Assembly: GCF_900106645.1 (NCBI RefSeq)
Contig: NZ_FNMV01000007.1
Span: forward strand, 124,001 to 188,000
Length of the DNA stretch: 64,000 bases
Reading direction: 5' to 3'
From: Flavobacterium degerlachei
Lineage (GTDB): Bacteria; Bacteroidota; Bacteroidia; Flavobacteriales; Flavobacteriaceae
Of this stretch, positions 4,328 through 44,441 are shown piece by piece. Each line of letters opens with the position of its first letter. The stretch's first letter is position 1. Made by a program: the position numbers and the translations under genes. The notes beneath the pieces were generated by a model. It worked only from the letters and a program-made list of their open reading frames with translations, was not told the DNA's origin and did no database searches.

Positions 4328-4550
4328 TTATAGTAGGGAGTAGTTGTTATATCTTAACTTGTTTTGAATTTTCAAAAGTACAAAAGAATTCAGTTCATTT
4401 TTATAATTTTCCTAAATGCTGGCTACTGTCAGATTAAAATAGTGAACTTTTCTGCTCGATAAATTCTATTCTTTTTCTTATAATAAAATGTAGCGAACAC
4501 TAAGATGTATGGACAATAAGATCCTGACATAATTAAGGTGTATTATCGCA

Positions 4551-9322: not shown

Positions 9323-10495
9323 ATGCTACAGAACATATTATTAGAACGAAAAATTTATGCATCAGAAGAACATAAGATGATGCAAGCCATGATTCAAGAG
9401 TTCATTGCAAATGAAGTTTTGGATCAAGTAGATGAATGGGAGAAAAACGGTATGGTAAGTCGAGAAATATGGAAACGTGCTGGAGAATTAGGACTATTGT
9501 GTATCGATATGCCTGAAGCATACGGTGGGGGAGGATTAGATTTTACATTTAATGCTTTGTTAATTGAAGAGTTTGCAAAAAAGGGAATAAGTGGTCCTGG
9601 ATTTTCTTTGCATTCTGATATTGTTGCTCCTTATTTATTGAATTACGGAACCGAGGCACAAAAACAAAAATACTTGCCATTAATGGCCAAAGGCGATATA
9701 ATTACTGCGATAGGAATGACCGAACCTAATTGCGGAAGTGATTTGAAAGCACTTCGTACAACTGCAGTTGATAAAGGGGATCATTATTTAGTAAATGGAC
9801 AGAAAACCTTTATCACCAATGGATTTATGTGTGACATGGCAATTGTAGCGGTAAAAACCAATCCAAATACTGAAGAGGAAGGAGTTACCTTGCTTATTAT
9901 GGAATCTTCAATTGAAGGGTTTACCAAGGGGATTCCATTTAAAAAAATAGGAATGAAGTCTCAGGATACTTGTGAGTTGTTTTTTGATAATGTAAAAGTG
10001 CCGAAGGAAAACCGACTTGGTGACGAAAAAATGGGGTTTAAAATCATGATGAAGGAGTTGGCTCGAGAACGATTAACGGTTGGTATTTTTGCAGTAGCAA
10101 CTGCAGAGGGTGCCATTGAAAGTACTGTTGAATACACGACGCAACGTACCGCTTTTAATACGCCTATTGCCGGATTTCAAAATACACAGTTTAAATTGGC
10201 AGAGTGCAGCACGCAAATGCAAATACATCAGACTTTTCTAGATCGCTGCATCGAATTATTAGTAGATCATAAACTAACATCTGAAAGTGCTTCAATGATT
10301 AAATACTCGGCAACTGATATGTGCGGAAATGTAGTCGATCAATGCTTGCAACTATTTGGCGGTTACGGCTATATGTGGGATTATCCAATTGCCAGAATGT
10401 ATGCTGATAATCGTGTGGCGCGTATTTATGCGGGAACCAATGAAATCATGAAAATACTAATAGCACGTGGATTATTTAAAGACATTTTAAAATAA
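9323..10495 (+). CDS. Acyl-CoA dehydrogenase, long-chain/isovaleryl type
   Basis: This 390-residue flavoenzyme catalyses the first oxidation of beta-oxidation. FAD-binding signatures are present (GMTEPNCGSDLKALRTTA and FITNGFMCD). Near the C-terminus the usual YEGT glutamate of medium-chain enzymes is replaced (RIYAGTNEIMKIL). Long-chain and isovaleryl-CoA dehydrogenases share this pattern and place the base on an earlier helix; here that region is ARERLTVGIFAVATAEGAIE. A long-chain type is therefore favoured. The stop overlaps the thioesterase ATG (TAATG). Confidence 0.93.
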   Translation: MLQNILLERKIYASEEHKMMQAMIQEFIANEVLDQVDEWEKNGMVSREIWKRAGELGLLCIDMPEAYGGGGLDFTFNALLIEEFAKKGISGPGFSLHSDIVAPYLLNYGTEAQKQKYLPLMAKGDIITAIGMTEPNCGSDLKALRTTAVDKGDHYLVNGQKTFITNGFMCDMAIVAVKTNPNTEEEGVTLLIMESSIEGFTKGIPFKKIGMKSQDTCELFFDNVKVPKENRLGDEKMGFKIMMKELARERLTVGIFAVATAEGAIESTVEYTTQRTAFNTPIAGFQNTQFKLAECSTQMQIHQTFLDRCIELLVDHKLTSESASMIKYSATDMCGNVVDQCLQLFGGYGYMWDYPIARMYADNRVARIYAGTNEIMKILIARGLFKDILK

Positions 10496-18794: not shown

Positions 18795-19026
18795 GGCTTT
18801 TATTTATATATTTGCCTAAATTTTTTGAAATAATGAAAAATATTTTAGCCGTTATTTAGTGGTTAAATGTGTTAGTAGTTCGTTTGCAGTATGTTATGAT
18901 TTGTATTTTATTAAAATCAATAATGGGATTGTACTTACCTCTATTAAAACGGAGCTCAAATACTTTAAACTATGAAAAGAATTTTACCCTATTTCTTAAA
19001 AATAGAAACTTTTAATTCGTTATTCA
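18795..19026 (+). repeat. Duplicated promoter and leader, copy 2
   Basis: This is the counterpart of 11164-11394. The -7 box TATATTTG is at 18807-18814. The conserved ATGAAAA falls at 18972, which is the first in-frame ATG of giant gene 2, whereas in copy 1 the equivalent ATG opens only an eight-codon frame. Confidence 0.7.
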
Positions 19027-31000: not shown

Positions 31001-34000
31001 ATCCAAGTCACAGAATATAAGTGGTAATAAATTCACGAACTTGAATGTCAATACAACGGGTGCCATTACATTAATCTCTAACAATGTGAGTCTGCCCAAT
31101 GGAGGTGCACAGAATGTTAATAATAATAATATAGTTTCCGGATTTACTAGATCAAGTACGGCAGGTTCTGGAGCACTTAATCTTTTTACAAGTACAACAG
31201 CTGTATCTGCAGCTGGTAGCACTATCAACAACAATAATAATAACTTTTCGAATATTACAGTAAGTGGAGCGGCAACTATTACTGGATGGGTGAATACGGA
31301 TGCAGGATACGGAACTAAAAATATTAAAAACAATACCTTCAGTACTTGGCAAAATACAACTGCAACTTCGGCAGCATCTATGACTGGTATTTCTGTGAAT
31401 ACACTGGGTACTGGAAATGAAATTTCTGGAAATCAGATCAATACTTTTAGCGCAGGTGGAAATATATATGGTATTCTAACTGCTGCTGGAAACGACAGAA
31501 TTTTTTCAAATACAATTCATTCACTAGTGTCTTCTGCTGCGATAACAACAACCGTTGTAAATGGAATTGCTATTTCGACAACAGGAACTTCTAAACAAGT
31601 GTATCAAAATACTATATATAACATTCAGTCAAATGGAGGATTTACCACGGGTAGCGTCAGTGGAATAGCTGTAACTGGAGGTTTGAATAATCTTATTTTC
31701 AGAAATAAAATATACAATATATCATCCGCTAACTCTGCAATTACCGGTACTGTAAACGGAATTATGGTTTCTAGTACCGTTGTAGATCAAACCACTACTA
31801 TCCACAATAATATTATTGGTGATATCAAAGCTACAGCGGGAAGTGGAGTCAATCTGGTAAACGGTATTAATGTTATGAATACTGGATTAAGAGCAACTAC
31901 CAATGTGTATTTTAATACTATTTACTTGAATGCAACGGCTTCAAGTGGAACTAACTTTGGTTCTTCGGGAGTAAATCATACCGCCAGTGCAACAGCTACT
32001 ACCGGAGTCTTGGATTTGAGAAACAACATCATTATTAATCAATCCGAACGTAAAGGTACAGGTGTGACAGTTGGTTTGCGTAGAAGTAGTTCAGCATTGA
32101 ATAATTTTGCAACCACATCTAATAATAATTTATTTCATGCAGGAGCAGCTTCACCAACAAATTTAATTTATTCTGATGGTACCAATCTAATTCAAACTTT
32201 TGAAGATTATCAATCATTAGCAAGTCCAAGAGAAAGCAATTCAGTTTATGCAGATTTAATTGGTATTTCAAAATTCATCAATAGCAGTGATCCTTCTTTA
32301 GCTTCATATCTTCATTTTGTTGACGGTATAGAAACTGTGGCTGAGAGTGGTGGGACTAATATCGAAGGTATCGATGTTGATTTTGATGGTGAGATGCGTA
32401 ATGGAGAAACACCAGATATAGGTGCTGATGAATTTGAAGGAATTCCTGCCTCTGCTTTGGCTGGAACTTACAATGTGGGACTTGGTAAGCGATTTACTTC
32501 TCTAACCAATGCAGGCGGATTATTTGCTACCATCAATAGTTTGGGATTAAAAGGAAATATGATAGTCAATATAACCTCAGATTTAGCAGAGGATGGTAGT
32601 CGTTCTTTAAACCAATGGAAAGAAGAAGGGGTAGGTAATTATACATTAACGATTCAATCCATTTCAGTAGCTCAAAAAGTTATTAGTGGAAATGTTGATA
32701 CGGGGTTAATTCGTTTTACTGGTGCCGATAAAGTTAAAATTGATGGGAAATTTGGAACAAATAATAATAGTCTGACCTTTAGAAATAATAGTGCAGCTAC
32801 AAGTACTTCAACATTTTTATTTATTAATGATGCCACTAACAACCAAATTCTCAATTGTAATATTGAAGGGATGGGTACCGGAATTAATACAGGTACAATA
32901 CATTTCTCTACAGGAGCATCAGCAGGAACTGGTAATGACCTTAATATAATTTCAAATAACAATATAACACCAGTTTCTAATAATTTACCAACAAATGCAA
33001 TTTATTCATCTGGTACTTCAATTGCTATTAATAATAGTGAAGTTACAATATCCAATAATAATATCAGGGGGTATTTTAATTCTGAGACTTCATCAAATGG
33101 TATTTTCCTAGCAGCTAATAGTTCAGATTGGAGTATTACTGCTAATAAATTATATCAAACAGCTACACGAACATCCACTGTGGCAAGTAATATCAGAGCC
33201 ATAAATATTGTTACTCCATATGGAGTTAATTATACAATTAACAATAATAGTATTGGTTTTGCAAATACCTCTTCGACAGATAACACAACGTATAATGGGG
33301 ACGTAGCTTCCACATTTAGAGCAATTGAATTGAATGTAGGTGTAAATGAAGTAACTAATATTCAGGGTAATAGTATTGGAGGGATCAATTTTAGTACTTC
33401 AGCATCAAGTTCATTACCAGGATTTTTCACGGGGATATCTGTATTGGGTGGTCGTGTTAATATTGGAACAACTGCAGGAAATACTATTGGAAGTACCATA
33501 GGAAATTCGTCTATCATTTTATCGTCTTCAACGACGGCGGGAGTTATTACTGGAATTTATTCGACTTCAATTAGTGATGTTGATATTAGAAATAATAACA
33601 TTGGTGGTATCATTACTTTAGGCGATGACAGCATTGGATATACATTCAATGGAATTTATACAGTTGGTGTAGCAGGAAATTATAGTATTATTTCCAACAC
33701 CATTGGAAGTAGTACTACAGCAAACTCGATTAATATTGGAGGTGTTTCTACAACAGCAATTTGCACATTCAATGGAATTAATAATAGCGCTACTGGAACC
33801 ATTTCTATCAACAGTAATACCATTCAAAACACAACCGTTAATGGAACAGCCGCTTCTGTTTATTATGGAATTCTAAATACAGCAGCAAGTGGGACTTTGA
33901 GTATTAATAGTAACAGTATTGTTTCTGGTACAAATACAGGTACTGGGACGGCTTCGACTAGTGTCTTTACAGCCATATTGAATACTGCAGCATGTGAATT

Positions 34001-37000
34001 TGCAGCTATTAAATCGAATATTATAAGAAACCATAAGAGAACCGACTCTGGAATATTTACAGGAATTTCTTCTACTGGTGCTATTTTTGGTTCATTAGCA
34101 ATAGAGGATAATCAATTAGGTAACAATAGTGGTGGACTGATAAGTTATACAGGTACAAATAGTAGAAATCTTATAGGTATTAATGTGAGCAGTGCAACTG
34201 GTATCGCCGCTTTATCAATCAAAAATAATGACATTCGAGGGATCAATTATCAAACTACTTCCTCTGGAGCAAATACTTATATTATTAATGCTGCTGCTAC
34301 TAACCAACAAACTATTAGCAATAATACTTTTACAGATTTAAATATTAATTCAACGGGGAATATCATCTTTATTTCTAATAATGTTTTGATACCTGAGAAT
34401 GGAACACAATTGATTCAAAACAATCGTTTGGCAACAGCTACAGCAGCAAGTACTTTTTTCAGTAAATCGGCAGGTGGAGGAACTGTAACATTATTTACCA
34501 GCACCACTACAGCAACGGCCGCAGCGGGAGTAACCATTACCCATAGTGGAAATAACTTTTCGAGACTAAATGTTTTGGACGCTACCGCCATTGCAGGTTG
34601 GGTTCAAACCGATGCAGGAGTAGGTTCGCCAACATTGACAATAGAAAATAATGTTTTTGAAAACTGGATAGGTGGTACGTCTGCAATAACCGCAATAAAC
34701 GTAAATACAACGAGTAATACCAATGCAACAAAAAATAATAGTATCAAAAGTATTAGTAGCAATGGAACTATTACAGCCATTACAACGGGCCTAGGGAATG
34801 ATAATATTTTTTCTAATACTATTGATAACTTGACCTCCTCTGGTGGTACCAGTAATACTATAGTTTCAGGAATTAATATTAGTTCTGGCGCTACCCAAAA
34901 TATTTATAGTAATAAAATAACCAATCTTACTGGAAACGATTTGACTTCGGGCTCAGTAAGAGGAATTCTGATTTCTGGAGGTACCTTAATAAATGTATAT
35001 CAAAATACTCTCTCGAAAATTACAGCTAACGCAAATACGAGTGGTACCATTAACGGTATTTGGATTTCAGGGGGCTCGTCTATCAATGTTTTTCGCAATA
35101 AAATTTATGATATTTCTTCTACGAGTTCAGTGATGTCAACCGGGACTGTTCAGGGAATTCAAGTATCGGGCTCATCTGCAAATTTAAATGCAACAATTAG
35201 TAATAATATCATTGGTGACATCAGAACAGCCAATGCAAATATTGCAAATCCTCTGAGGGGAATAAGTTTGATTTCTACTGGAGCTAATTCTAACATAAAT
35301 TTATATTACAATACTATTTACCTTAATGGAACTTCTACTGGAACAGATTTTGGATCGTCAGCTATTTATCATTCTTCAAGTGCAGCAGCATCTATTGCAA
35401 ATCTTGACATGAGAAATAATATTATTTTAAACAATTCAGTAGCTCTAGGTTCTGGTAAAACAGTTGCCTACTATAGATCTTCAACAGATTTAAGTAACTA
35501 TTCAACTAATTCGAACAATAACTTGTTTTTTGGAGGAACAGCCTCAGCAAACAACTTAATTTTCTTTGATGGTATTAACCAAGAGGAAACTTTAGCTGGA
35601 TTTAAAGTAAGAATGATTAACAAGGATCAGCTTTCAGTAACTGAAGACATGATAGCCAATTTAAAGTTTTTAAGCATTAACGGGTCAGATGATACTTATT
35701 TACAAATGAACCCTCTTAAAGCTACTTTTGCCGAAAGTGGAGGTGCAAACATAAGTGGATTTACAATTGACTTTAAAGGCAGTATTCGTCAAGGAAACCC
35801 AGCTTATGTAGGTACAGGAAATAAACCTGATATTGGAGCTGATGAGTTCGAAGGAAAATTTGTAAATGTATGGAAAGGATCAATAAGTCAAAATTGGGCT
35901 ACAGTTGGTAATTGGACTAGGAATTTAATACCTGTAACAGACGAATCTATTGTTTTTGATGAGATACCATTAAATGATTTAATACTAGATGAGGATAAGT
36001 CAGTATTGAATATTACTAACTCACAATCAACTTATGGTATTGTTCTTAATGGTAAAAAACTAACTTTAAAGGGAGGGTTGTTTTTCTCTGCTGGGGGTAC
36101 AATAGACGCTTCAGCCCCAAATTCTACGATGCAGTTTTCGGGCTCGGCTGTTCAATCAATAAATACAGCCGTATTTAAAAATGATGCAGTTTATAATCTG
36201 AATATTAATAATTTGAATAATGTAGTTCTTAACGGAAACCTAAGGTTGTTAAACAATTTAACGTTGACTTCTGGAAAGTTAGATGCATTCACCAATTCGC
36301 CTCAAATAACATATGCTGGAAACGCAGTGCAAACCATAGCAATTAATCAATTTCTAGGAGAAAAAGTATACAACCTCATTGTAGACAATGCTTCAGGAGT
36401 TCTACTTAATACTAATTTTGCTGTAACCAATTCATTGGTAATTAATAATGGAAAAAAGTTGTCTGTATCTTCGTTGTATCAACTTACTGCAATGGGAACG
36501 ATTAGCAACAATGCTGGAACAGCAGGTCTTATATTGAAATCAGATGCAAGCGGAACGGCTTCTTTATTGCATAATTCGAATGATGTTCCAGCGACAGTAC
36601 AGCGTTATATAAGTGGTCCTGTCGAGGGCTGGCATTTTCTTTCTTCGCCAGTATCTAATCAAGCCATTAGTGGTTCGTGGTTACCTGTAGGTAGTTATGG
36701 AACGGGAAATGTACTTACAGGAACAGGATATGATTTATATTTATGGGATGAACCATCGTACAGTTTTAAGTACAAACAAGATGCTAGTCCGATAGGGTGG
36801 AACTCGGTACATCCAGGAAGTAACTTTTCTGTAGGACGTGGCTATCTTTATTCAGTCCAAGCATTAAATCCTACCAAAGAATTTCAAGGAAATTTGAATA
36901 ATGGCATTATAAATTATCCAATTACGATAACCACACCTCCTACACCAGTTGATCCGATTTTAGATAATCTTAAAGGGTTTAGTCTTGTAGGTAATCCGTA

Positions 37001-37934
37001 TCCTTCTTCAGTCGATTGGCAAGCAGCTTCAGGCTGGGATCGATCTAAATTAGAAGTGAGTGCTGCAGGTGGTAATGATATGTGGGTATGGAATCCTACA
37101 GCGAATAACTATGGAGTTATTAATTCCGCATCAGGACTGGGAACCAATTCCATTAGTAGGTATTTAGCGCCTATGCAAGGTTATTTTGTAAAAGCCGCAA
37201 CTGCAGGTAACTTAGGATTTGATAATACCGTCCGTGTTCATACAGGGGCTGGAAACTGGTTTAAAAATTCAGGAGTCAAAAAAGGAGTGATTCGTATCGC
37301 TGTACAATCAGAGGATGGTAGTGGTGCTGATGAAGCACTAATCCAGTTTGGATATTCTGACAGTAAGCAAGGGGCATCAAAACTTTTCAGCCATGTAGTT
37401 ACCGCTCCTAGCTTGTATATGAGCTCAAACCGTAAAGATTACTCAGTACGATATATGACTGATACAGCCGACAACAACTCAGTTCCGGTAGAATTTAAAG
37501 CGGGAAAAAATGGGTTTTATAATCTTGCATTCAGTTATGATTCAAAAGAATTCGATTTTGTACAATTAGAAGATCGTCTGTTGAAAACGTATACTTCTGT
37601 AAATCCAACAAGTTCGTATAGTTTTACAGCTACCATAAAAGATAGTGCGAATCGTTTCGTTCTTCATTTTAGCGAAGTTGAAACTTCAACTGAAAATGAA
37701 TTAGCAGCATTCGTTTACATGAGTGGAGGTCAAATGGCGATAGACTTAAAAGCGGTGGATGTTCAGACTGAAGTTAGTGTTTTTGATATTACTGGTAAGC
37801 TACTATTACAAAAAGAATTGGAGGGTGCTGCTGTTCATAAGTTAGACTTAAATATAGCGACACAAGTGTTAGTGGTTCGTCTAAAAAATGAAAAAGGTGG
37901 ATTGAAAACTAAAGTAATTTATAATCATTTATAA
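18972..37934 (+). CDS. Giant secreted beta-helix protein (6320 residues) with T9SS-like tail
   Basis: This 18.96-kb frame encodes a surface-adhesin-like protein. A signal peptide (KKTVVETKFFFFLFALFSF, ending TTIAQ) begins only near residue 78, so a TTG start at 19203 is possible; the first ATG is kept here. Approximate domains: PKD-like (105-180), LamG (207-380), acidic TSP3-like repeat (485-510), LamG (520-720), second TSP3-like repeat (725-755) and Ig-like domains (800-988). Four beta-helix modules follow (1001-2080, 2090-3221, 3369-4490, 4496-5628), each ending in (D)IGADE or MGADE. A separate domain lies at about 3222-3368. The shared C-terminal module (5631-6320) ends the protein. Its size is like that of gliding adhesin SprB, but the domains differ. 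Confidence 0.88.
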   Translation: MKRILPYFLKIETFNSLFTIPTKLMLLIKLSVCSISNTLKGLRKNNSIVSKNTDTSFFKVNNGISGLNVTNLFKDQILKKTVVETKFFFFLFALFSFNTTIAQPVINGTQNIACQGQVVSYSLSNSFTTYQWTITGGTPSSGTGSSINVTWGSGNRGQITVEGFNSGVSQGTATRKIYIDQKSLFTPTSNSTIFSGDATALNLDFVNKSMLFNGSTDYVGISNSNLINLGITDYRTVSLWFKANDVTTRQVLYNEGGGTNGLSMYIEGGKVYVLAWEGNTAWNAPNAPINVGQWYNISFVFDKNATDGFHFKGYLNGVNIGQYNEGSKADDGLAAHSGSVQIGSTTSNIVFHDNTTSNNKYFNGYIDDFKLWNRSLTGAEISIEKDHWLSSPVIDADLDVYINFNSSVLDIADSPSAESGALNGSPIYHNDAPLLPNILWSTGAATASITVNPTATTNYTYSLTEKLSAGCPQNGAINVTVTNGIDTEGDGVNDRYDLDDDNDGILDAVEMSCLPVAGYDGYWTFDNNTNDVSGNNHNLQAGSLSYSTDSKIGVASASFNGTSDYLQYSDGNYLNDAKGYFSYAFWVKPGTLTGIQNLLDEGGSVNGVAIRLNGTVLENAIRESNVQYSTSSFIFPSDNRWHHVALTYNNGGFTMYLDGVPSNNLATGFGDLAAHSSDHNFGAASGGDAFGNSNSYYYKGLMDDILHYPKVLSATEITGIIEKKCDVDNDGIASSLDLDSDGDGCSDANEAYANSNADGGDNGVYGLGTPTVKSNGLVASASYSAPAVITSGPTYLQGLTLAITTAPTNQGVCVGTTVTFTAAAIATILTTNPATTASTDISFQWKVSTDGGGVYNNISGANGKVASGTLVSLGLANVTTAMNGYRYKVGFTNEATICPVESSAILNVSTLPTVTGIPGSRCGTGAVILGATTTAGTVNWYANASGGTILGTGTSFTTPYLSSNTYYFAEAIQNGCVSSSRTAVLASLNSGNIEVVASQGTASTCYPTLKDAFTAINSGTHKGEIVINLVGNTSETTTAALNASGSGAALYDNILIKPTGGVSRSISGSIAGNLIDLNGADNVTIDGLNSGGNALIISNTSNAATASTIRFIADATSNTITNCIIEGSGTGASTATIFFSTGTAIGNDDNTISTNTIKQAGTNLPTNAIYSGGTSVPIDNSGISILNNNIQDYFSSGANGSAGLLVASNSSAWNIVGNRFYQTASRAITVAGTHRGIAILTTSGVDYSVTDNFIGYGDSNGGGISTYTGAFAYLFRGIELSVGTTSNSSVQNNTISGINITSSTAIVIPGAFSGIAVLAGTVDIGTITGNTIGATSGTNAISVGSTTTLTNITGIYATSTSAVTIQNNIIGAINTGSGSAAIGYIFNGIYTAGTGSYIVSSNMIGSENTANSIAIGTNGVTTTGVCTFYGINNAATGNITINENTVQNGTVYGTAASLFSGILNSAAGSNTTLDITKNNVLNFDNTGTGVSIGISVSGASAATLNLTENSIRSSTLTGSGSFTAISNVSAVATTNITDNIIRNITRSATTGAVTAISSTGGVTGFLNINDNQFGNDDGGLVTFSAASSGALIGINVSSATAASELSILRNDFRGITHSIQGSSPHTYIINAATTKRQDISNNTFTDLDVNTTGAVTFISNSVVLPANAVQEVKENKIATAMTAVPAVFFNKNGAGGTVTLFTSTATTTAAGVKVNHTANDFSKIQLTGATIMAGWVHTDAGQTVKSFTANTFSNWIGGSGSTTGLTVSGGANGSGTISGNTISAITSSGVITGISTSSGNENFISNNINGLSTIGVSAVNGITVTAGTLKKISRNKIYNLEASIVGGTVNGILVSGSTANIQVQIDNNIIGDLRAPNANAVDAIRGISITNTGANSTSNVYYNNIYLNALSSGTNFGTSGVYHTVNATATTAVLTLRNNIIINQSIPKGTGITAAYRRSGTSLNNFSITSNNNLFHAAAPSSNNLVFYDGTNSSQTLDAYQNIVAPRETNSVYADLITGGKFLTLVASNSNYLHLDGTKSSLAFNAAVNIDGITKDFDGQIRQGNDGYIGTEIAPDMGADEINTGVQPTPLSGVYYVGSGQTYKSLTNAGGLFSSINSLGLSGDVTVYVTSDLTEDGSNPLYQWTESGSGNYSLTVKPSAASPRLISLSLDSGFIRLNGADRTTFDGSFNGSGSYFTFANPSTSSAASVFQFINDATNNSVKNCNIEGSAVGTTAGIVVFSTGTTTGNDDNIISNNNIRPAGSNLPTNAIYSAGSSVNIDNSGNTISNNNIQDYYNAATASNGIFIASNSSAWTISGNKLFQTGTRTATVGTIHRGINIVTALGVGYNVSNNIIGYSSSTQTGTSEYTCGSNMNNRYFGIEMTVGLATASSIQGNTVAGLSLTNTNTGTVSTVPGIFGGISILAGSVNVGTITGNTIGSTIGNGSITITATKTLNIFEGIYSTSVGAVNIQNNIIGGISTAGGNAIGYLFYGIYTAGTGAYTISNNFIGSNSISNSISIGTISTSAVCTLYNIYNLATGAITISSNTIQNVTSNGTGASVLTGILNSAGSGDQLNITGNTIVAINNTGTGIITGISNTAAIASSVSITGNTIRTSTHTGTGTFNGILNGAAVATVNISSNIIRDINKNAVTGAFTAISSTGAVTSALNINDNQLGNSDGGLVTFNAASGGTLTGINTSGAIASCDVSVQRNDIRGIIHSVTASNTHNYISNSAVSKSQNISSNTFTNLNVNTTGTITFITNNVSLLAGGTQDVNSNSIVTAFARSAAGALTLFTSSTTTSAIGSTINNNNNIFSNITLVGASTIAGWVNTDAAYGTKNIKNNVFSNWQNATATSGATMTGINVATIGTENEISGNQINNFSTGGTTYGITTGVIAATGNDRIFSNIIHTLVVSPGSTSSVLNGIAITGGSYKQVYQNTIYNLQSSGAGITTGTISGIAVTGGLNNLIFRNKIYNISSSSTSITGTVNGIMVSGTLADQVTTIRNNSIGDIRVSAATGTLVNGINVVNTGLRSTTNVYYNTVYLNAPASSGAVFGSSGINHTASATATTGTLELRNNIIINNSAFKGSGLSVAFRRSAGTLGVLNNYSTASNNNLFYAGTPGANNLVYYDGTGSGSFQTLVAFKAGTNVAGTISPREQASVTENTNFLSTIGADASYLHINPSIATQIESSATNIPGVTVDFDGDTRHATLPDIGADEGNFVRDDKVGPTISYTALSNNSCGLSPSLSVTITDASGINTTTAKPRIYYKKAGSIDAITGNTSSENGWKFTEATNSTSPFNFNINYALLIGESVSTGDVIQYFVVAQDLASTPNVSMNAGAFATLPMSVVLSTANLPTVGTTNRYTVLQGLSGNVTIGAAGTYPSITGAGGLFDDINAKGLSGNLTATIIDPTLNASGAVALSAISYGCGSNYSLTISPKAGLAVTMSGDVAGPIINLNGAKNVIINGLNTGGSSLTISNTNTSTLATTIQLTNDASYNTISNCIIEGSGTNTALGTIFLSTGITSGNDNNTISNNTIKAAGSNLPTNAIYSAGTSVIADNSDNIVSNNNIQDYFNTGFASNGIFIASNGSTWTITGNKFYQTATRTSTASAIHRAINIVTASGSSYTISNNSIGYANANSTGTTTYNGSFANLYRGIEITTSILGGTSVIDGNTIAGINFSTTSGSTTLPGIFSGISVLGGNVKIGSITGNTIGASTGTGSISISSSTSLGVITGISSSTIGTVVIAKNKIGSINAVSSGNIGYTFSGIYSAGTFGNYTISENSIGSTTEVNSISIGAGSTSAVSTLYGVINLATGAMEITNNTVQNITTNGTGASVLTGILNSAASGSVLNITGNNVIAISNTGTGIVTGISNTLATVAVANINNNTVRSSSLVGAGAFIGILNGSAVPTVNINSNIIRNISRTTATGNVTGISSAGVLSVALNINNNQLGNTDGGFITYDIPSSGSLVGISVSGGSILSAQSIQNNDIRGIVHSALSTSAHTYIINASASKSQNISGNKFTNLNVNTTGAITLISNNVSLPNGGAQNVNNNNIVSGFTRSSTAGSGALNLFTSTTAVSAAGSTINNNNNNFSNITVSGAATITGWVNTDAGYGTKNIKNNTFSTWQNTTATSAASMTGISVNTLGTGNEISGNQINTFSAGGNIYGILTAAGNDRIFSNTIHSLVSSAAITTTVVNGIAISTTGTSKQVYQNTIYNIQSNGGFTTGSVSGIAVTGGLNNLIFRNKIYNISSANSAITGTVNGIMVSSTVVDQTTTIHNNIIGDIKATAGSGVNLVNGINVMNTGLRATTNVYFNTIYLNATASSGTNFGSSGVNHTASATATTGVLDLRNNIIINQSERKGTGVTVGLRRSSSALNNFATTSNNNLFHAGAASPTNLIYSDGTNLIQTFEDYQSLASPRESNSVYADLIGISKFINSSDPSLASYLHFVDGIETVAESGGTNIEGIDVDFDGEMRNGETPDIGADEFEGIPASALAGTYNVGLGKRFTSLTNAGGLFATINSLGLKGNMIVNITSDLAEDGSRSLNQWKEEGVGNYTLTIQSISVAQKVISGNVDTGLIRFTGADKVKIDGKFGTNNNSLTFRNNSAATSTSTFLFINDATNNQILNCNIEGMGTGINTGTIHFSTGASAGTGNDLNIISNNNITPVSNNLPTNAIYSSGTSIAINNSEVTISNNNIRGYFNSETSSNGIFLAANSSDWSITANKLYQTATRTSTVASNIRAINIVTPYGVNYTINNNSIGFANTSSTDNTTYNGDVASTFRAIELNVGVNEVTNIQGNSIGGINFSTSASSSLPGFFTGISVLGGRVNIGTTAGNTIGSTIGNSSIILSSSTTAGVITGIYSTSISDVDIRNNNIGGIITLGDDSIGYTFNGIYTVGVAGNYSIISNTIGSSTTANSINIGGVSTTAICTFNGINNSATGTISINSNTIQNTTVNGTAASVYYGILNTAASGTLSINSNSIVSGTNTGTGTASTSVFTAILNTAACEFAAIKSNIIRNHKRTDSGIFTGISSTGAIFGSLAIEDNQLGNNSGGLISYTGTNSRNLIGINVSSATGIAALSIKNNDIRGINYQTTSSGANTYIINAAATNQQTISNNTFTDLNINSTGNIIFISNNVLIPENGTQLIQNNRLATATAASTFFSKSAGGGTVTLFTSTTTATAAAGVTITHSGNNFSRLNVLDATAIAGWVQTDAGVGSPTLTIENNVFENWIGGTSAITAINVNTTSNTNATKNNSIKSISSNGTITAITTGLGNDNIFSNTIDNLTSSGGTSNTIVSGINISSGATQNIYSNKITNLTGNDLTSGSVRGILISGGTLINVYQNTLSKITANANTSGTINGIWISGGSSINVFRNKIYDISSTSSVMSTGTVQGIQVSGSSANLNATISNNIIGDIRTANANIANPLRGISLISTGANSNINLYYNTIYLNGTSTGTDFGSSAIYHSSSAAASIANLDMRNNIILNNSVALGSGKTVAYYRSSTDLSNYSTNSNNNLFFGGTASANNLIFFDGINQEETLAGFKVRMINKDQLSVTEDMIANLKFLSINGSDDTYLQMNPLKATFAESGGANISGFTIDFKGSIRQGNPAYVGTGNKPDIGADEFEGKFVNVWKGSISQNWATVGNWTRNLIPVTDESIVFDEIPLNDLILDEDKSVLNITNSQSTYGIVLNGKKLTLKGGLFFSAGGTIDASAPNSTMQFSGSAVQSINTAVFKNDAVYNLNINNLNNVVLNGNLRLLNNLTLTSGKLDAFTNSPQITYAGNAVQTIAINQFLGEKVYNLIVDNASGVLLNTNFAVTNSLVINNGKKLSVSSLYQLTAMGTISNNAGTAGLILKSDASGTASLLHNSNDVPATVQRYISGPVEGWHFLSSPVSNQAISGSWLPVGSYGTGNVLTGTGYDLYLWDEPSYSFKYKQDASPIGWNSVHPGSNFSVGRGYLYSVQALNPTKEFQGNLNNGIINYPITITTPPTPVDPILDNLKGFSLVGNPYPSSVDWQAASGWDRSKLEVSAAGGNDMWVWNPTANNYGVINSASGLGTNSISRYLAPMQGYFVKAATAGNLGFDNTVRVHTGAGNWFKNSGVKKGVIRIAVQSEDGSGADEALIQFGYSDSKQGASKLFSHVVTAPSLYMSSNRKDYSVRYMTDTADNNSVPVEFKAGKNGFYNLAFSYDSKEFDFVQLEDRLLKTYTSVNPTSSYSFTATIKDSANRFVLHFSEVETSTENELAAFVYMSGGQMAIDLKAVDVQTEVSVFDITGKLLLQKELEGAAVHKLDLNIATQVLVVRLKNEKGGLKTKVIYNHL
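21972..25212 (+). repeat. Beta-helix module 1 of giant gene 2
   Basis: This unit of about 1080 codons opens with a YPTLKDAFTAIN head, passes through NxxNTI-type helix turns, and ends with VYYNNIYLN, LRNNIIIN, NNNLFHA and PDMGADE. It is the most diverged of the four modules at its head. Confidence 0.85.
25240..28632 (+). repeat. Beta-helix module 2 of giant gene 2
   Basis: This unit of about 1130 codons begins YYVGSGQTYKSLTNAGGLFS and ends LPDIGADE. It includes the GLNNLIFRNKIYNIS and TNVYYNTVYLN segments shared with module 3. Confidence 0.88.
29076..32443 (+). repeat. Beta-helix module 3 of giant gene 2
   Basis: This unit of about 1120 codons begins TIGAAGTYPSITGAGGLFDD and ends TPDIGADEFEG. 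Long blocks are nearly the same as module 2 (for example GTKNIKNNxFSxWQN and GLNNLIFRNKIYNISS), pointing to tandem duplication of a 3.4-kb unit. Confidence 0.88.
32457..35857 (+). repeat. Beta-helix module 4 of giant gene 2
   Basis: This unit of about 1130 codons begins YNVGLGKRFTSLTNAGGLFA, close to the head of module 2, and ends KPDIGADEFEG just before the shared C-terminal module. Confidence 0.88.
35862..37934 (+). repeat. Shared C-terminal module, copy 2
   Basis: This is the counterpart of 16216-18287 and is the same length to within a few codons. It contains the WKGSISQNWATVGNWTRN opening and a T9SS type-A-like end (VFDITGKLLLQKELEG, then LVVRLKNEKG). Confidence 0.92.
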
Positions 37935-38637: not shown

Positions 38638-39195
38638 ATGAAAAATCTATTAACTCTTATAATGGTTACTGTGACAATAGGTTTTACAGGGAATAGTAAA
38701 GCCCAAACTTTATCAACTGTTAATGCTTCAGCAGGTGCAACGATAATAGTTCCAATGACATTAACAGAGCAAAATTCATTAAATTTTGGAAGCACAAACA
38801 AAAAAATAGGTGTTGCTGGATCAGTTGTGCTTTCTACAACAGATGCATCTCGTGATTTTAATGGAGGTGTTTCTGGATCCTCAGTTGGCGGCGCTGCTTC
38901 CAACGCTGTTTTTAATGTAACAGGAGCTCATGATAGTAGCTATGCGATAACATTACCTACCTCAATTATAGTTAGGGAGCCAGGCTCTATGTCAATGACT
39001 ATTAATGAGCTAAAGATTAGATTTAGTGGCGCTGCTCAAGACGTTGCAATTAATGAAGGTAGTAATAGTGTTAGCAAGATGCTAAATGCTAGTGGAAATG
39101 ATAGTTTTAGATTGGGAGGAAAGTTAAACATAGGGTCGGAACAACTGGCTGGGATATATTCTGGAACTTATTCGATAACTGTTGACTACAATTGA
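38638..39195 (+). CDS. DUF4402 candidate pilin subunit 1
   Basis: This 185-residue exported protein has a signal peptide (MKNLLTLIMVTVTIGF, ending SKAQ) and one DUF4402 domain. Landmarks are IIVPMTLTEQNSLNFGS near the mature N-terminus, a central FNVTGAHDSSYAITLP strand, and a C-terminal GTYSITVDYN strand. A beta sandwich that ends in such a strand is what chaperone-usher subunits show. It has its own terminator and stands 545 bases before the second DUF4402 gene, so it may be separately regulated. A structural role in a surface fibre is inferred from the chaperone and usher genes downstream. Confidence 0.85.
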   Translation: MKNLLTLIMVTVTIGFTGNSKAQTLSTVNASAGATIIVPMTLTEQNSLNFGSTNKKIGVAGSVVLSTTDASRDFNGGVSGSSVGGAASNAVFNVTGAHDSSYAITLPTSIIVREPGSMSMTINELKIRFSGAAQDVAINEGSNSVSKMLNASGNDSFRLGGKLNIGSEQLAGIYSGTYSITVDYN

Positions 39196-39227
39196 CTGAA
39201 TAGTAAAATAATCAAAACTAAATAATG

Positions 39228-39251
39228 GCTGTCCTTTGGGATGGCTTTTTT
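39228..39251 (+). terminator. Terminator after DUF4402 gene 1
   Basis: GCTGTCC (39228-39234) pairs with GGATGGC (39239-39245), with two G-U pairs, around a TTTG loop and before a six-T run. Confidence 0.75.
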
Positions 39252-39740
39252 GCTTTTAATAGGAATTAAAAGTAGTCTATCTATAGTGGGTGAGTAGATT
39301 ACTCTTTTAGGTATTCTTATTTTTATTTTGATCATCTTATTATATTTCAGTTTGGCCAAACTACTTACTTTTTTCTGTTTTTATGACACTTCTAAATCAA
39401 TAAATGTACTTCAATTGGAAAGTGATATTTGGTTCCAAATATTAAAAATAAGAAGTCCTCTATAGGTCCAAGGCTTAATATACAATTACTGACTGAGTTA
39501 TTCTCTTTTATGAGACTCTGTTATAGTCATATTTTCTTTTTTTTTATAGGCATTTTTTTCTACCTGATTACATCGAAATACCGTACGAATTTTCATAATT
39601 AATGTAATGATTGAGCAGAAGTTGCACTTTAACGGTTTTTTAGGTTAGTTACAGACTTTTTTAGGAGCGATGTGTAGTTGCATCATATGTTTGCACCAGA
39701 TTTAAAAACCGATTTACCCAAATCTACTAAAACAAAAAAC
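39252..39740. other. Intergenic region before DUF4402 gene 2
   Basis: About 490 AT-rich bases with no gene recognised. Near its end is the promoter candidate at 39686. An in-frame ATG at 39678 precedes the promoter box and is not a likely start. Confidence 0.5.
39686..39693 (+). promoter_or_regulatory. -7 promoter box of DUF4402 gene 2
   Basis: TATGTTTG fits the Bacteroidetes -7 consensus TAnnTTTG. It predicts a leader of about 40 bases to the ATG at 39741, and it falls inside the upstream in-frame extension, which supports the shorter start. Confidence 0.55.
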
Positions 39741-40286
39741 ATGAAAAAAAACCTACTTACATTAGCAACTATCCTTACAATTGGATTTTTTACAAATAAT
39801 GCTATGGCACAAACTAGTGCAGAAGTATCAACAACAACTGCTGGGGCAAAATTAATTAAACCGATGACTCTTGTTCAAGATTCTCCTTTGCATTTTGGAA
39901 CTATAAACGTTCTTGCAGGAGCAGGAGGAACTGTAGTGATGAATTCAGATAGTAACTCTCGAACTTTTAGTAGTGGTGTCGCATCTGGAATAGTTGCTCC
40001 TGCACCTACCAATGCAGCATATACTGTAACGGGTACAAAAAATGTAACTTATGCGCTTACTTTACCTACAACTATAGTAGTAGCAGAAACTCTTGTACCT
40101 GCGAATACGATGACAATTTCTGCTTTAAAAGCAAGATTTAATGGCGAAAGTGTAGATGCTGTTACTAGTACATTAAGCGCAACAGGAACTGATAGTTTTA
40201 CAGTTGGTGGGACTTTGACAGTTGCAGCATCTCAAAATGCTGGGATTTATGCTGCTACTTTTAAAGTAAGTGTTGATTATAACTAG
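39741..40286 (+). CDS. DUF4402 candidate pilin subunit 2 (probable major subunit)
   Basis: The start is set at the signal peptide (MKKNLLTLATILTIGFFTNN, ending AMAQ), giving 181 residues; 21 further codons upstream overlap the promoter box. The DUF4402 domain shows KLIKPMTLVQDSPLHFGT, a central YTVTGTKNVTYALTLP strand, TVGGTLTVAASQNAGIY and a C-terminal ATFKVSVDYN strand. It is the closest relative of subunit 1 in the window. It is followed by a terminator and then by the chaperone and usher. A promoter-proximal subunit with a leaky terminator behind it is the usual plan for an abundant shaft protein. That role is inferred. Confidence 0.86.
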   Translation: MKKNLLTLATILTIGFFTNNAMAQTSAEVSTTTAGAKLIKPMTLVQDSPLHFGTINVLAGAGGTVVMNSDSNSRTFSSGVASGIVAPAPTNAAYTVTGTKNVTYALTLPTTIVVAETLVPANTMTISALKARFNGESVDAVTSTLSATGTDSFTVGGTLTVAASQNAGIYAATFKVSVDYN

Positions 40287-40305
40287 TATTTAATTTGATA
40301 TAGGG

Positions 40306-40344
40306 AAAAGGGGAAAGATAACTTATAGTCTTTTCCCTTTTTTT
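40306..40344 (+). terminator. Terminator between DUF4402 gene 2 and the chaperone
   Basis: AAAGGGGAAAGA pairs with TCTTTTCCCTTT (40329-40340) around a loop of about ten bases and runs into Ts. It probably lowers read-through from the subunit gene into the assembly genes. Confidence 0.75.
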
Positions 40345-40398
40345 ATTGGCATAATGGTTTATTTTTGCCTAGTACGATCAAATTAAAAAAAGAATATA

Positions 40399-41220
40399 AT
40401 GAAAAAGCTGCTGTTATTTATCGCCATTATAGTTTTCACTATTAAAGCTGAAGCTCAAGGTGACTTACTAGTTACACCCAGCCGGGTTGTATTTGAAGGC
40501 AATAAGCAGAAAGAAATACTTAATCTGGTAAACATGGGAAGCGAAACGACCACCTATTCAGTATCTTTCGTTCAGAAAAGTATGAAAGAAGATGGTAGTT
40601 TTGTAGATATTATTGAAGCTGAATCGGGGCAACAATTTGCAGATCCGTATCTGCGTATCTTCCCAAGGCAGGTAACATTAGCGCCAAATGAAGCACAAAC
40701 TATTGTGGTACAATATAGACGTAAAGCAGATATGCAGTCAGGAGAGTACCGTTCGCATTTGTTCTTTAGATCCGAAAAAGATTATACAGCACTTGGAGAT
40801 AAAACTGCAGCCAAAGATGCTAAAAGTTTAAGTGTTCAGCTGATTCCTATTTTTGGGATGAGTATTCCCGTAATTATCCGAACAGGCCAAACTGACGTAT
40901 CAGCAATGCTAAGTGATTTGAAACTTGATGTACAGGATAAAGAGGTACATAATTTTAGTTTTACCATTAATAGAACGGGCAATATTTCATTGTATGGTGA
41001 TATCAAAGTAGAATTTTCCCCTGAAAAAGGCAAACGGTTTGACATTGCTGCTATTAATGGAGTGGGAGTTTACACTAGCATAGATAAACGGAGCATAAGA
41101 GTACAATTAGATGCTGCGACAATGAAGTTGTTAAAAAAGGGTACATTGAAAGTGACTTACAATAGTAATGGTGATGGTAAATCTGTAGTCTATGCTACCA
41201 GTGATTTGGTAATTGAATAG
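40399..41220 (+). CDS. PapD-like periplasmic pilus chaperone
   Basis: The 273-residue exported protein has a signal peptide (MKKLLLFIAIIVFTIKAEAQ) and a PapD-like first domain. It opens LLVTPSRVVFEGNKQKEILN, where R29 sits at the position of the subunit-anchoring arginine of PapD. The typical LRIFPRQVTLAPNEAQTIVV segment (about residues 85-104) leads to the G1 strand. A second, shorter beta domain follows and ends DLVIE. It lies between DUF4402 genes and just before the usher, as chaperones do in chaperone-usher loci. It probably holds DUF4402 subunits for delivery to the usher. The family is clear; the partner is inferred. Confidence 0.87.
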   Translation: MKKLLLFIAIIVFTIKAEAQGDLLVTPSRVVFEGNKQKEILNLVNMGSETTTYSVSFVQKSMKEDGSFVDIIEAESGQQFADPYLRIFPRQVTLAPNEAQTIVVQYRRKADMQSGEYRSHLFFRSEKDYTALGDKTAAKDAKSLSVQLIPIFGMSIPVIIRTGQTDVSAMLSDLKLDVQDKEVHNFSFTINRTGNISLYGDIKVEFSPEKGKRFDIAAINGVGVYTSIDKRSIRVQLDAATMKLLKKGTLKVTYNSNGDGKSVVYATSDLVIE

Positions 41221-41264
41221 TGAAAACAAGACAATTTTCTTATAATGAGTATTTATAAAATTGA

Positions 41265-41786
41265 TTGATATTGAAAATAATAAACTCAAAAACAGCATTC
41301 TGTAAACTAAGGTTAATCGTTAGCGCACTACTGTTTTGTGCAGGTTATTCTTATGGTCAACCGTCGTTACCGCCACGATTTATAGAGGTTAATGCAATCC
41401 AAAATCTTAACTTTGGATCTTTTGTTCTTACTGGTAGTGCGGGAGGCAGTGTCTTGTTAGGATATAATGGAATTAGAAGTAGTACGGGAAGTATTGCACT
41501 ATTGGGGAATGACTCTCAGCCTGCTATTTTTGAAGTTAAACTACTTCAAGGAAGGAATGTAAAAATAGATTTTACAGGTACTTATACGTTAACAGGTAGT
41601 AATGGAGGCTCTCTTGTGCTAACAATTGACACTACTGAAAAAGGAAATACGGGTACTTTTTTTCCCACAGATAATAATCGTGCGTTTACAACTAATTTAA
41701 GTGTTGGCGGTAAACTTGATATTCCAGGCAATTCAATTCCAGGCACTTATATCGGTACTTTTAATATTACCTTTAATCAGGAATAG
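41265..41786 (+). CDS. DUF4402-like subunit 3 (minor or terminal subunit candidate), TTG start
   Basis: The frame has no usable ATG. TTG at 41265 or 41271 is the likely start, giving 171-173 residues with a long signal peptide (LRLIVSALLFCAGYSYGQ). The mature part is DUF4402-like: NAIQNLNFGSFVLTGSAGGS, a central beta region, LSVGGKLDIPGNSIPGTY and a C-terminal GTFNITFNQE strand. It is more diverged than subunits 1 and 2 and sits between the chaperone and the usher, three bases before the usher ATG. That position and the weak start suggest a low-copy subunit such as an initiator or tip. This is inference. Confidence 0.75.
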   Translation: MILKIINSKTAFCKLRLIVSALLFCAGYSYGQPSLPPRFIEVNAIQNLNFGSFVLTGSAGGSVLLGYNGIRSSTGSIALLGNDSQPAIFEVKLLQGRNVKIDFTGTYTLTGSNGGSLVLTIDTTEKGNTGTFFPTDNNRAFTTNLSVGGKLDIPGNSIPGTYIGTFNITFNQE

Positions 41787-41789
41787 GAA

Positions 41790-44441
41790 ATGATGAAAAA
41801 TAAATTTAGTGTTGGTTATTCCGCATTTCGTAGGTTTATTATGATTATTCCGATATTTTTTGTGGTTAAAATCTTATTTATTTTTATGCTAGTAAGCTCT
41901 TTTAGTACTTATGAGGAAAAGTTTGGGAGTACTGTTATAAAAATGAAATCAATTGATCCAGATCCAGTCGCCTATGATTTGTTTCCTGTTAATGTAATTA
42001 TTGAAGGAGTGGGGAGTTTTGATTTAGACGTTTTATATACTGAAAATGACCTATTGTTTATTAATATCGAAGATTTATTCAGAGCCCTAAAAGTTCCATG
42101 TACTGATGGAGTGAAGGGAATTAGTGTTGAAGGATTTATTGGAAACGCGTACCAGCCATATTCTATTGATTTTGCAAAAGGCATCATAAAAGTAGGTGAT
42201 CGAACAATTAGAACCGATGATAAATTACTAAAGGAATCAGGGATTTTATATATGGAATCCTCACTTTTTGCAAAAGCGTTCGGGATTATATTGGATTTCA
42301 ATTACAGATCTCTTACCATAAAACTAAAAGCTGATTTTGAGTTGCCTGTAGTAAAACAGATGCGACTTGAGAAAATCCGATCAAATATTGCAGATATAAA
42401 AGGTGAAGTTGTGGTAGATACCCTCATTAGTCGGGACTATCATTTATTTAAGTTCGGTACACTAGATTGGTCTGCTTCCTCATTTCAAAACTGGAAATCT
42501 GCAGCAAATAATGCATTTGGCTTAAGTTTAGGTACAGAATTGCTCTATGGAGAAGCTAACATATCGATGAATTATTTCAGTCAATACAAATTTGATGACC
42601 GCCAATTGCAATACCGTTGGAACTGGGTAGACAATGATAAAACCCTTATAAAGCAAGCCCAAGTGGGTAAAATCAGCGTTCCACTGATTTCCTTTATAAA
42701 TGCACCGTTAGTTGGTGCCAGCATTCGAAATTCACCTACTACAGTTCGAAAAGCAAAAGGGAGCTATATTATCAACGAAATTGCGGAACCCAATTGGACG
42801 GTGGAGTTGTATATAAATAATGTTCTGGTTGATTTCACGACGGCCGATGCTTCGGGTGCTTTTAGATTTAATGTGCCTATTGTTTACGGGTTCACCACTT
42901 TAAAATTAAAGTATTATGGTCCTACTGGCGAGGAACGTACGGAGGAACGGGAGATGAATGTGCCCTATACTGTAATGGCTACTAATGAATTTGAATATGG
43001 ATTATCTGCAGGTATAGTGCAGGATGGTGATGGAAGCCGGTTTGGTAAAGGAGAATTTAACTATGGTGTCAATAGGATTTTAACTGTTGGTGGTGGTATA
43101 GAGTATCTGTCTTCGCTGCCTAGTGATGGATTTATTCCTTATGCCACTGCTACACTACAGCCTTTTAGTAGGCTGATCTTAAACGGGGAGTATGTGCATG
43201 GCGTAAGGTCTAAGGGGGTGTTGAATTACTATATTACTAAGGAAATATTGTTGGAGCTTGATTATGCTAAATATGTTGAAGGGCAAAAAGTGACCATATT
43301 TAATTCTAACGAGGAACGGAAAGCCAAGTTGTCAATTCCATTACGTTATAAAAAGATAAATGGTTTTTTTAGATTGGATTACTCTCAATTGGTTTATAGT
43401 GCATTTAGTTATAACTATGCCACTGCGATGTTTTCGGTCTATTATAAACAATTTAGTACCAATGCATCAACACAAATCAATTGGGTCAGTGAAAAAGATC
43501 CTTTTATTACAAACGACTTAGTATTGGGTTACAGGCTTAAGAATAATTATGTCATACGATCGTCAGTACGATATAATGCTAGTAGCTCTTCGTTTATTTC
43601 TTATACCACAGAGTTGGAGAAAAGAATAGCAAAAGGTTATTTATCAGCTTCTTTTCAAAAAAATATAATTTCAGATGATTATTATATTAATCTGGGCTGC
43701 AAATATGATTTTTCGTTTGCAAGAACAGCTGTCTCAGGATCACAAAGCAAATTCAATAGCGGTACTTCAATAAGTGCGCAAGGGAGCTTGGCTTTTGGAG
43801 CAGGAAACGGCTACATTCATAGTAACAATAATTCTTCTGTGGGTAAAGGTGGCATAGTACTATATCCATTTCTGGATTTAAATCATAACGGTATTTTTGA
43901 TAAAGAGGAACATTTGGTCAAATTAAGTGTGGCTCGCGCTAATGGGGCAAAAACCATTATTAGTGAAAAAGATTCCATAGTACGTATTCCGAACCTGAAT
44001 TCATTTACCGACTATGTTTTAGAGTTTAATGACAGTGATTTAAGTAATATCGCCTGGCGTTTTAAACATAATACTTACAAAGTTTTGGTAGACCCAAACC
44101 AGTTCATGCGTATTGATGTGCCTATTCTTGCCATGGGAGAAATAAGTGGGATGGCTTATATGGAAAAAGAAAATGAACTCAAAGGGATAGGCCGGATATT
44201 GATAAAAATATACGAGAAAAACAGTGATAAAGTCGTAGTAGAAACACTTTCAGAATATGATGGGTACATATACAAACTGGGGCTTAAACCGGGGGAATAT
44301 AGGGCCTGTGTAGATCCAGAACAGTTGAGTAATCTTAATTTTATTGCAGAACCTGCTTGCAGATACTTCACGATAAAGACATCTGAAGAAGGTGATATCG
44401 TTGATGGAATTGATTTTATACTGAAGAAAAATAAAGAATAG
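41790..44441 (+). CDS. Divergent outer-membrane usher (fimbrial usher-like)
   Basis: The 883-residue protein has a long hydrophobic N-terminus (about residues 17-38). A periplasmic N-domain follows (about 60-190, ending LDFNYRSLTIKLKADFELP). A beta-rich barrel carries a plug-like insert (about 336-395) with NWTVELYINNVLVDFTTADA and GFTTLKLKYYGPTGEE, which resembles the usher plug/middle domain. After the barrel come periplasmic beta domains (about 690-883), one with DLNHNGIFD and one with a carboxypeptidase-regulatory-like fold. Usher proteins form the outer-membrane pore that strings subunits together. Similarity is structural in style and low in sequence, so usher is a strong but not certain call. 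Confidence 0.78.
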   Translation: MMKNKFSVGYSAFRRFIMIIPIFFVVKILFIFMLVSSFSTYEEKFGSTVIKMKSIDPDPVAYDLFPVNVIIEGVGSFDLDVLYTENDLLFINIEDLFRALKVPCTDGVKGISVEGFIGNAYQPYSIDFAKGIIKVGDRTIRTDDKLLKESGILYMESSLFAKAFGIILDFNYRSLTIKLKADFELPVVKQMRLEKIRSNIADIKGEVVVDTLISRDYHLFKFGTLDWSASSFQNWKSAANNAFGLSLGTELLYGEANISMNYFSQYKFDDRQLQYRWNWVDNDKTLIKQAQVGKISVPLISFINAPLVGASIRNSPTTVRKAKGSYIINEIAEPNWTVELYINNVLVDFTTADASGAFRFNVPIVYGFTTLKLKYYGPTGEERTEEREMNVPYTVMATNEFEYGLSAGIVQDGDGSRFGKGEFNYGVNRILTVGGGIEYLSSLPSDGFIPYATATLQPFSRLILNGEYVHGVRSKGVLNYYITKEILLELDYAKYVEGQKVTIFNSNEERKAKLSIPLRYKKINGFFRLDYSQLVYSAFSYNYATAMFSVYYKQFSTNASTQINWVSEKDPFITNDLVLGYRLKNNYVIRSSVRYNASSSSFISYTTELEKRIAKGYLSASFQKNIISDDYYINLGCKYDFSFARTAVSGSQSKFNSGTSISAQGSLAFGAGNGYIHSNNNSSVGKGGIVLYPFLDLNHNGIFDKEEHLVKLSVARANGAKTIISEKDSIVRIPNLNSFTDYVLEFNDSDLSNIAWRFKHNTYKVLVDPNQFMRIDVPILAMGEISGMAYMEKENELKGIGRILIKIYEKNSDKVVVETLSEYDGYIYKLGLKPGEYRACVDPEQLSNLNFIAEPACRYFTIKTSEEGDIVDGIDFILKKNKE

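Follow-up and report, generated by a model that had tools for sequence, protein, structure and literature searches.

Whether Flavobacterium degerlachei carries the genes for a chaperone-usher fibre is the question raised by five open reading frames (ORFs) that lie together on the positive strand at positions 38638-44441 of a 64,000-nucleotide stretch of its genome (contig NZ_FNMV01000007.1, positions 124,001 to 188,000), referred to here as the window. The initial annotation, made from the sequence alone, described three DUF4402 proteins, a PapD-like chaperone and an 883-residue barrel protein with an usher-like plug, and proposed a distinct, little-studied surface-fibre system of Bacteroidetes. 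Fold, profile, gene set and subunit design agree on a chaperone-usher locus, and we put the probability that it specifies an unrecognised variety of chaperone-usher fibre system, the products of which would assemble into a fibre, at roughly 87%. The system is a variant of the known pathway rather than a new kind of system, and is widespread but overlooked by standard gene models. If this reading is correct, it provides a function for DUF4402, places the chaperone-usher pathway in a phylum from which no report of it was found, and would allow annotation to detect the system with a single profile.

One line of evidence comes from the putative usher. Its AlphaFold2 model, built from an alignment of 47 members (A3), has a mean predicted local distance difference test score (pLDDT) of 85.8, and a Foldseek search of this model against the PDB returned only FimD/PapC-type ushers at ranks 1-18, the best with an E-value of 1.6e-26. 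By VIA-align the FimD/PapC structures score Z 20.6-24.2, with the next barrel at 16.0; here and in the subunit searches, absence of a family from the VIA lists does not exclude that family. Separate from this structural evidence, hhalign matched A3 to a set of E. coli K-12 ushers (A6, five sequences) with Prob 99.1 and E 1.3e-18 over 590 columns, in an alignment that includes the segment matching the one we take to be the plug of the E. coli ushers. The 883-aa protein is thus predicted to have the plugged usher barrel that the initial annotation had proposed, followed by C-terminal domains. The comparison with the usher family PF00577 that had been suggested as a check turned out negative, with none of the 47 ushers matching at E ≤ 0.01 and none of 374 Bacteroidota genomes above the cut-off, in a search in which the E. 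coli control was positive; below the cut-off, matches occur in 4 of the 374 genomes, each within an usher found by the usher profile. No usher model in Pfam or NCBIfam matched the window protein, and a sequence search of the usher profile against the PDB found no usher, the matches being to accessory SPOR and CarboxypepD-like parts.

Such accessory parts recur across the family: of the 47 ushers, 25 match CarboxypepD_reg, 12 match SPOR and 2 match OmpA domains, and one Pseudoalteromonas plasmid usher also carries a SPOR domain. The SPOR domain matches suggest that these ushers may be anchored to the cell wall. On the Pseudoalteromonas xiamenensis plasmid, separate SPOR-annotated genes flank the operon (4364-4849 and 9666-10304), in agreement with the fusion of such domains to other ushers. 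A copper-amine-oxidase N-terminal domain model matches 6 of the 47 ushers, the best at 1.3e-6. Positions 284-356 of the usher profile, in the plug-like stretch, match a biofilm-associated surface protein (7dm0, 3.2e-8; 6m3a, 0.001), presumably by way of a common Ig-like domain.

The gene two places upstream of the usher encodes a putative PapD-like periplasmic chaperone. No PapD model in Pfam or NCBIfam matched the window protein; for this protein and the usher alike, the nature is shown through relatives, and for the usher also through its predicted structure. PapD_N (PF00345) matches 9 of the 40 members of the chaperone family, the best at 1.2e-6 and the window protein not among them, and both plasmid chaperones scanned exceed its cut-off of 23 bits, with scores of 25.3 and 23.2. 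By hhalign, the family aligns with seven E. coli chaperones (A7) at Prob 95.4 and E 1.9e-8. The segment SLSVQLIPIFGMSIPV carries alternating hydrophobic residues in the place of the G1 strand (L144-V146-L148...I156, by eye). The best PDB sequence match of the chaperone profile is the WxL-interacting protein EfmWxLIP1 (9i1y/9i25; positions 33-267), at an E of only 0.005-0.006; WxL-interacting proteins are Gram-positive surface proteins that are not known to act as pilus chaperones, and the match is taken as a lead hinting at kinship between the two groups, not as membership.

All three DUF4402 subunits score above the PF14352 cut-off in a Pfam scan, and signal peptides were seen by eye. The AlphaFold2 model of subunit 1 (pLDDT 91.5) contains no strand before residue 41, and its C-terminal strand is the last of the domain. 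In a Foldseek search with this model, chaperone-usher subunits occupy all but one (row 17) of the first 22 rows, and the top six VIA rows are likewise all of this kind (Z 8.1-8.4). The predicted structure therefore supports the pilin-like fold that had been expected for DUF4402, possibly an incomplete immunoglobulin-like one. It does not bear out the proposal that the C-terminal strand GTYSITVDYN takes part in donor-strand exchange; the better reading of this strand is as strand F, with which the pilin domain ends. A tyrosine stands at one of the last two places in 65 of 87 DUF4402 proteins of the polymerising class, as also in all four Fim subunits printed for comparison.

The donor strand is instead likely to be the alternating segment at the N-terminus of the polymerising subunits. 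In this class, hydrophobic residues or glycine fill 67 of 103 cells at positions -4, -6 and -8, compared with 18 of 103 at -5, -7 and -9, in a count for which 36 of 38 sequences were anchored, several of them wrongly, and from which positions 0 and -2 were omitted, being fixed by the search pattern. The subunit encoded between the chaperone and usher genes differs from other DUF4402 proteins in that it lacks about nine N-terminal residues. With the mature start assumed by a rule of thumb, the distance from it to the FG motif is 18 residues in the window and in 10 of 12 relatives, compared with a median of 27 in other DUF4402 proteins. Among these 13 between-subunits, 11 gave 18, that of L053 gave 11 by eye (64 by script) and that of L072 is unmeasured; 34 of the 37 proteins in the comparison class were measured, the class including subunits 1 and 2 of the window, the L068 between-subunit and two odd values of 15. 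Subunit 3, without the extension, could only be first in the known pathway and is therefore the probable tip subunit, as judged from its sequence, and subunit 1 is the probable major polymerising subunit. In three loci of family f52 (L076, L088 and L091) the subunits contain cysteines reminiscent of spore-coat-U pilins, and proteins of 288-393 aa are encoded beside the usher, which may be two-domain tip adhesins.

By analogy with the known pathway, the subunits would be exported to the periplasm by way of their signal peptides, where the PapD-like chaperone would lend its G1 strand to a DUF4402 sandwich that ends in the F strand and lacks the last strand. The chaperone-subunit complexes would then dock on the usher, whose plugged barrel would form the outer-membrane pore, and within this pore the N-terminal extension of the next subunit would replace the chaperone strand. 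Subunit 3 would be assembled first, at the tip, followed by subunits 1 and 2 as the shaft, giving a surface fibre that would probably serve in adhesion and with which a giant neighbouring protein resembling those of the type IX secretion system (T9SS) may share a surface role.

The survey across the phylum that had been called for found the parts together. In a set of 392 Bacteroidota genomes, each with a completeness of 90% or more, the usher was detected in 88 (81 below E 1e-5 and 7 with nothing better than 1e-5, some of the matches being short, as in G246, G467, G210 and G219), DUF4402 in 62 (58 above the PF14352 cut-off) and the chaperone in 65. The usher is present in 60 of the 62 DUF4402 genomes (Fisher p 2.9e-46) and in all 65 chaperone genomes (p 5.4e-55), p values that are only a guide because the genomes are related. 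All three parts occur in 48 genomes, and 28 usher genomes have no DUF4402 match. Distant systems may be under-counted for the usher and chaperone, whose profiles rest on few Flavobacterium rows (4 for A1, 5 for A2). In 57 of the 62 genomes the usher has a DUF4402 gene no more than 8 kb away, the exceptions being G263, G310, G351, G374 and G475, in a test that used one or a few DUF4402 places per genome. Two apparent cases of DUF4402 without an usher were ruled out, as an usher-like gene is found in G310 (at L088; A1 profile, E 5.5e-4) and in G475 (at L087; the wider A3 profile). Of 52 loci read, 40 carry the full DUF4402-chaperone-usher set on one strand, 3 carry the chaperone and usher only and 9 lack more; the 40 count one place in Flavobacterium sp. 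ALD4 twice (L016 and L074). Usher-like genes without clear chaperone and subunit genes were seen near giant ORFs in L071, L077, L078 and L079, possibly a different arrangement of the system.

Within the genus the system is sporadic, occurring in 5 of 61 genus genomes among 100 relatives searched. In one of these, G047, only a remnant is present: the N-terminal part of the usher runs into the C-terminal region of the giant protein on a short contig (C112; L005), and C-terminal usher pieces, one with a stop, lie on contig C23 (L006/L007), so that this copy is decayed or misassembled. The nearest named relative of the locus is in F. frigoris PS1, with an usher 80% identical and four downstream neighbours also kept (82-95%). 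Those four neighbours were not found in the stretches read from G036, G045 and G019, indicating that the cassette lies at other places in these genomes. Elsewhere in the F. degerlachei genome the usher and chaperone profiles find nothing more, and DUF4402 has no further match.

The proposed restriction to Bacteroidetes did not hold, as related operons were found on alpha-, beta- and gammaproteobacterial plasmids. Relatives of the chaperone occur on 7 plasmid records from Polaromonas, Novosphingobium, Sphingopyxis and Pseudoalteromonas, and the operons were read in the six annotated records (H16/L103, unannotated, was left out). Each consists of one or more subunit-sized genes, the chaperone and then a protein of 893-1062 aa, the subunit being annotated as DUF4402 in 5 of 6. 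The six plasmid ushers are annotated as "carboxypeptidase(-like) regulatory", "SdrD B-like" or hypothetical and never as ushers, and the A3 profile, applied to a 22-protein set, recovers all six with E-values between 1e-83 and 1e-144. A DUF4402 protein is also annotated on a Deferribacter plasmid, with no chaperone annotated beside it.

Several observations weigh against a chaperone-usher fibre. No Foldseek match of the DUF4402 model reaches E ≤ 0.001, the best being 1.2e-3; VIA scores near Z 8 can by themselves reflect a common arrangement; and hhalign comparison of DUF4402 with FimA-type pilins revealed no similarity beyond the signal peptide. The N-terminal domain of the usher (approximately residues 61-200) is unaligned with FimD by profile and aligned in only one VIA row. 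The basic pair of the chaperone cleft (R8/K112 in PapD) is only half kept: the arginine (R29) is present in 23 of 40 members and the lysine position, aligned by eye, is a proline in 27 of 40, for a pair defined on classical chaperones. At least one of the three parts is missing from 12 of the 52 loci, some of which are at contig ends, and the L068 between-subunit has an extension-like start (23 residues). Finally, the usher and chaperone trees disagree on the branching of the window-type systems, those resembling the window operon. In the chaperone tree, the window-type, f32, one f36 and proteobacterial rows stand apart from 16 other Bacteroidota rows (100/100), whereas in a quick usher tree f32, one f36 and the proteobacterial rows stand apart from the window-type and other Bacteroidota rows (100). 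Both trees lack an outgroup, and because of their disagreement and the program's warning of long branches no history is drawn from them.

In its overall design the system resembles the classical pathway of type 1 (FimC/FimD) and P (PapD/PapC) pili, sharing the usher barrel with plug-like segment and C-terminal domains, a similar usher length, the PapD-like chaperone, pilin-like subunits and organisation in one operon. It differs in having no PF00577 match above the cut-off, DUF4402 subunits without detectable similarity to FimA, a chaperone in which the lysine is not kept, a single-domain tip candidate, and SPOR or OmpA matches in some of its ushers. Type V fimbriae (FimA/Mfa1) of Porphyromonas are surface fibres of the same phylum with proposed strand donation, but have no known chaperone or usher and mature by protease processing of precursors, according to the available part of PMC5789003, which states that neither protein has been described in P. 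gingivalis; a chaperone and usher are both present here. By eye, neither subunit 1 nor subunit 2 has a lipoprotein-type cysteine where its signal peptide ends. In the portion available, a TCDB-based survey names Proteobacteria, Spirochaetae, Cyanobacteria and Deinococcus-Thermus as carriers of fimbrial ushers (PMC4827864), and another survey leaves the chaperone-usher pathway out (PMC4793230). The available parts of these papers and of PMC5789003, PMC8304980, PMC3796261 and PMC10716499 contain no report of the system in Bacteroidetes. DUF4402 or PF14352 is not mentioned in the literature searched, in keeping with the view of a little-studied system; many subscription papers and preprints lie outside that literature, so that absence from print is unproven. 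The description of the system as distinct stands as well, though as a variant of the known pathway.

It is tentatively possible that the systems built on DUF4402 make up a chaperone-usher branch of their own that crosses phyla, lies outside the six described clades and escapes existing models, that many of their ushers are tied to the wall by SPOR/OmpA-type domains, and that in Bacteroidia the fibre works with a giant T9SS-secreted protein, two secretion systems thereby building one surface structure. The locus could instead be a divergent offshoot within the archaic (sigma) or the alternative (alpha) clade, two of those six, with no branch of its own, a possibility that we regard as doubtful. 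In its favour, the VIA list places the CFA/I tip adhesin, FimG and CsuA/B together (Z 7.8-8.4), the fold of the subunits is similar to that of the archaic Csu/spore-coat-U type (7zl4 and 6fm5 in the VIA list), and the subunit pattern, an early FG motif and an "AGxYxGxxxVTVxY" end, resembles that of spore-coat-U pilins. The available part of PMC8304980 describes the archaic clade as the most widespread, in Proteobacteria, Cyanobacteria and Deinococcus-Thermus, without naming Bacteroidetes. Against such membership, the lack of PF00577 matches above the cut-off extends across all 374 genomes, and the subunits match PF14352; a scan for PF05229 (spore-coat-U) gave no match in this genome, but none in any control genome either. 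In addition, the wide usher profile, in the same 22-protein set, misses all five E. coli ushers, including EcpC, even at E ≤ 10. EcpC is of the alpha type, and E. coli EcpC, EcpB and EcpE are the only references from the alpha and sigma clades in the comparison sets.

The subunits may also form a non-fibrous coat, in the manner of capsule-like polyadhesins, rather than discrete pili, which is conceivable but not the outcome we would expect. The Foldseek list of subunit 1 is headed by Caf1, a capsule-like polymer, and the tip candidate has one domain only, with no additional part for binding. Nothing decisive stands against a coat, as the assembly mechanism would be the same as that of a chaperone-usher fibre and only the final shape would differ.

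A further alternative centres on two large proteins encoded upstream (Table 1), and holds that the chaperone and barrel mainly display or anchor the giant T9SS-like protein, with the DUF4402 proteins as linkers. A search of 47 genomes (G238 and 46 of the 61 from the genus) gave strong relatives of the C-terminal 620 aa of the giant in only five; these five (G000, G036, G045, G019 and G047) are the genus genomes with a relative of this usher, and in each the giant region lies beside the usher. Three weak matches (28-33% identity) occur elsewhere among the 47. Relatives of the region adjoin the operon, or lie one gene away, in 11 of 14 other window-type loci (L011-L014, L016, which is L074, L017, L019, L020 as a short piece, L022, L072 and L073); of the remainder, L015 has no giant relative, L018 a repeat-only match, and L021 ends first. 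However, the region is common, being present in 71 of 247 genomes of the class at E ≤ 1e-20, so that adjacency and not the domain is the signal; L015, L052 and L053 have no match to it, G238 has a divergent usher and no giant match, and no neighbour of this kind is annotated in any of the six proteobacterial operons read. Display of the giant as the main role is improbable; the giant is associated with the operon and may share its surface role. That the barrel belongs to some other, porin-like export route is very unlikely: porins and LptD do appear lower in the Foldseek and VIA lists and no curated usher model gives a match above its cut-off, but the usher matches stand clear of every other listed barrel and cover the plug-like segment and C-terminal domains, and the PapD-like chaperone adjoins a barrel whose family is found in every chaperone genome.

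Table 1. Features of the putative chaperone-usher operon and its large neighbours (window positions).
Feature	Position	Strand	Length and basis
DUF4402 subunit 1	38638-39195	+	185 aa; PF14352, E 4.3e-23; signal peptide by eye
N-terminal extension of subunit 1, residues 24-40	38707-38757	+	candidate donor strand; alternating hydrophobic residues
Terminator-like hairpin, 31 bases 3' of subunit 1	39227-39246	+	sequence scan
DUF4402 subunit 2	39741-40286	+	181 aa from ATG (MKKNLL...); PF14352, E 1.4e-21; N-terminal extension present; polymerising class
Putative PapD-like periplasmic chaperone	40399-41220	+	273 aa; PapD_N matches in family; hhalign
DUF4402 subunit 3	41265-41786	+	173 aa, TTG start; PF14352, E 3.3e-21; without N-terminal extension
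Predicted outer-membrane usher	41790-44441	+	883 aa; predicted fold and profile
Usher barrel, residues ~214-670	42429-43799	+	predicted structure; VIA
Plug-like domain within barrel region, residues ~321-395	42750-42974	+	hhalign with E. coli ushers
Giant secreted protein adjoining the operon	18972-37934	+	6320 aa; relatives recur beside window-type operons
Second large protein	11427-18287	+	2286 aa; C-terminal region common with the 6320-aa protein

The last four genes of the operon are separated by 112, 44 and 3 bases. For subunit 2 the ORF list gives a TTG start at 39678, the ATG at 39741 being more probable, and the protein was analysed from 39738-40283, with one extra residue at the front. 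The hairpin downstream of subunit 1 is weak alone, given 3 terminator-like sites in the region against 3.3 expected, but its position is suggestive, as it would let subunit 1 be made in excess. A sigma-70 promoter scan found 21 sites against 29.0 expected, and the single match in the region to a Bacteroidetes-type promoter pattern lies within a gene.

The 6320-aa and 2286-aa proteins have C-terminal regions 71% identical over 692 columns, and in the ten proteins scanned the end of this region matched T9SS sorting models only below the cut-off, at best with 3.5e-8. By eye, the 6320-aa ORF looks to consist of long internal repeats and has a T9SS-like end, and the 2286-aa protein matches Ice_binding (PF11999, 2.5e-52), Ig_7 and GEVED. 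In six of the other loci (L013, L015, L017, L019, L022 and L052), response-regulator- or sensor-kinase-like genes were seen by eye nearby, and these may possibly take part in regulation of the operon.

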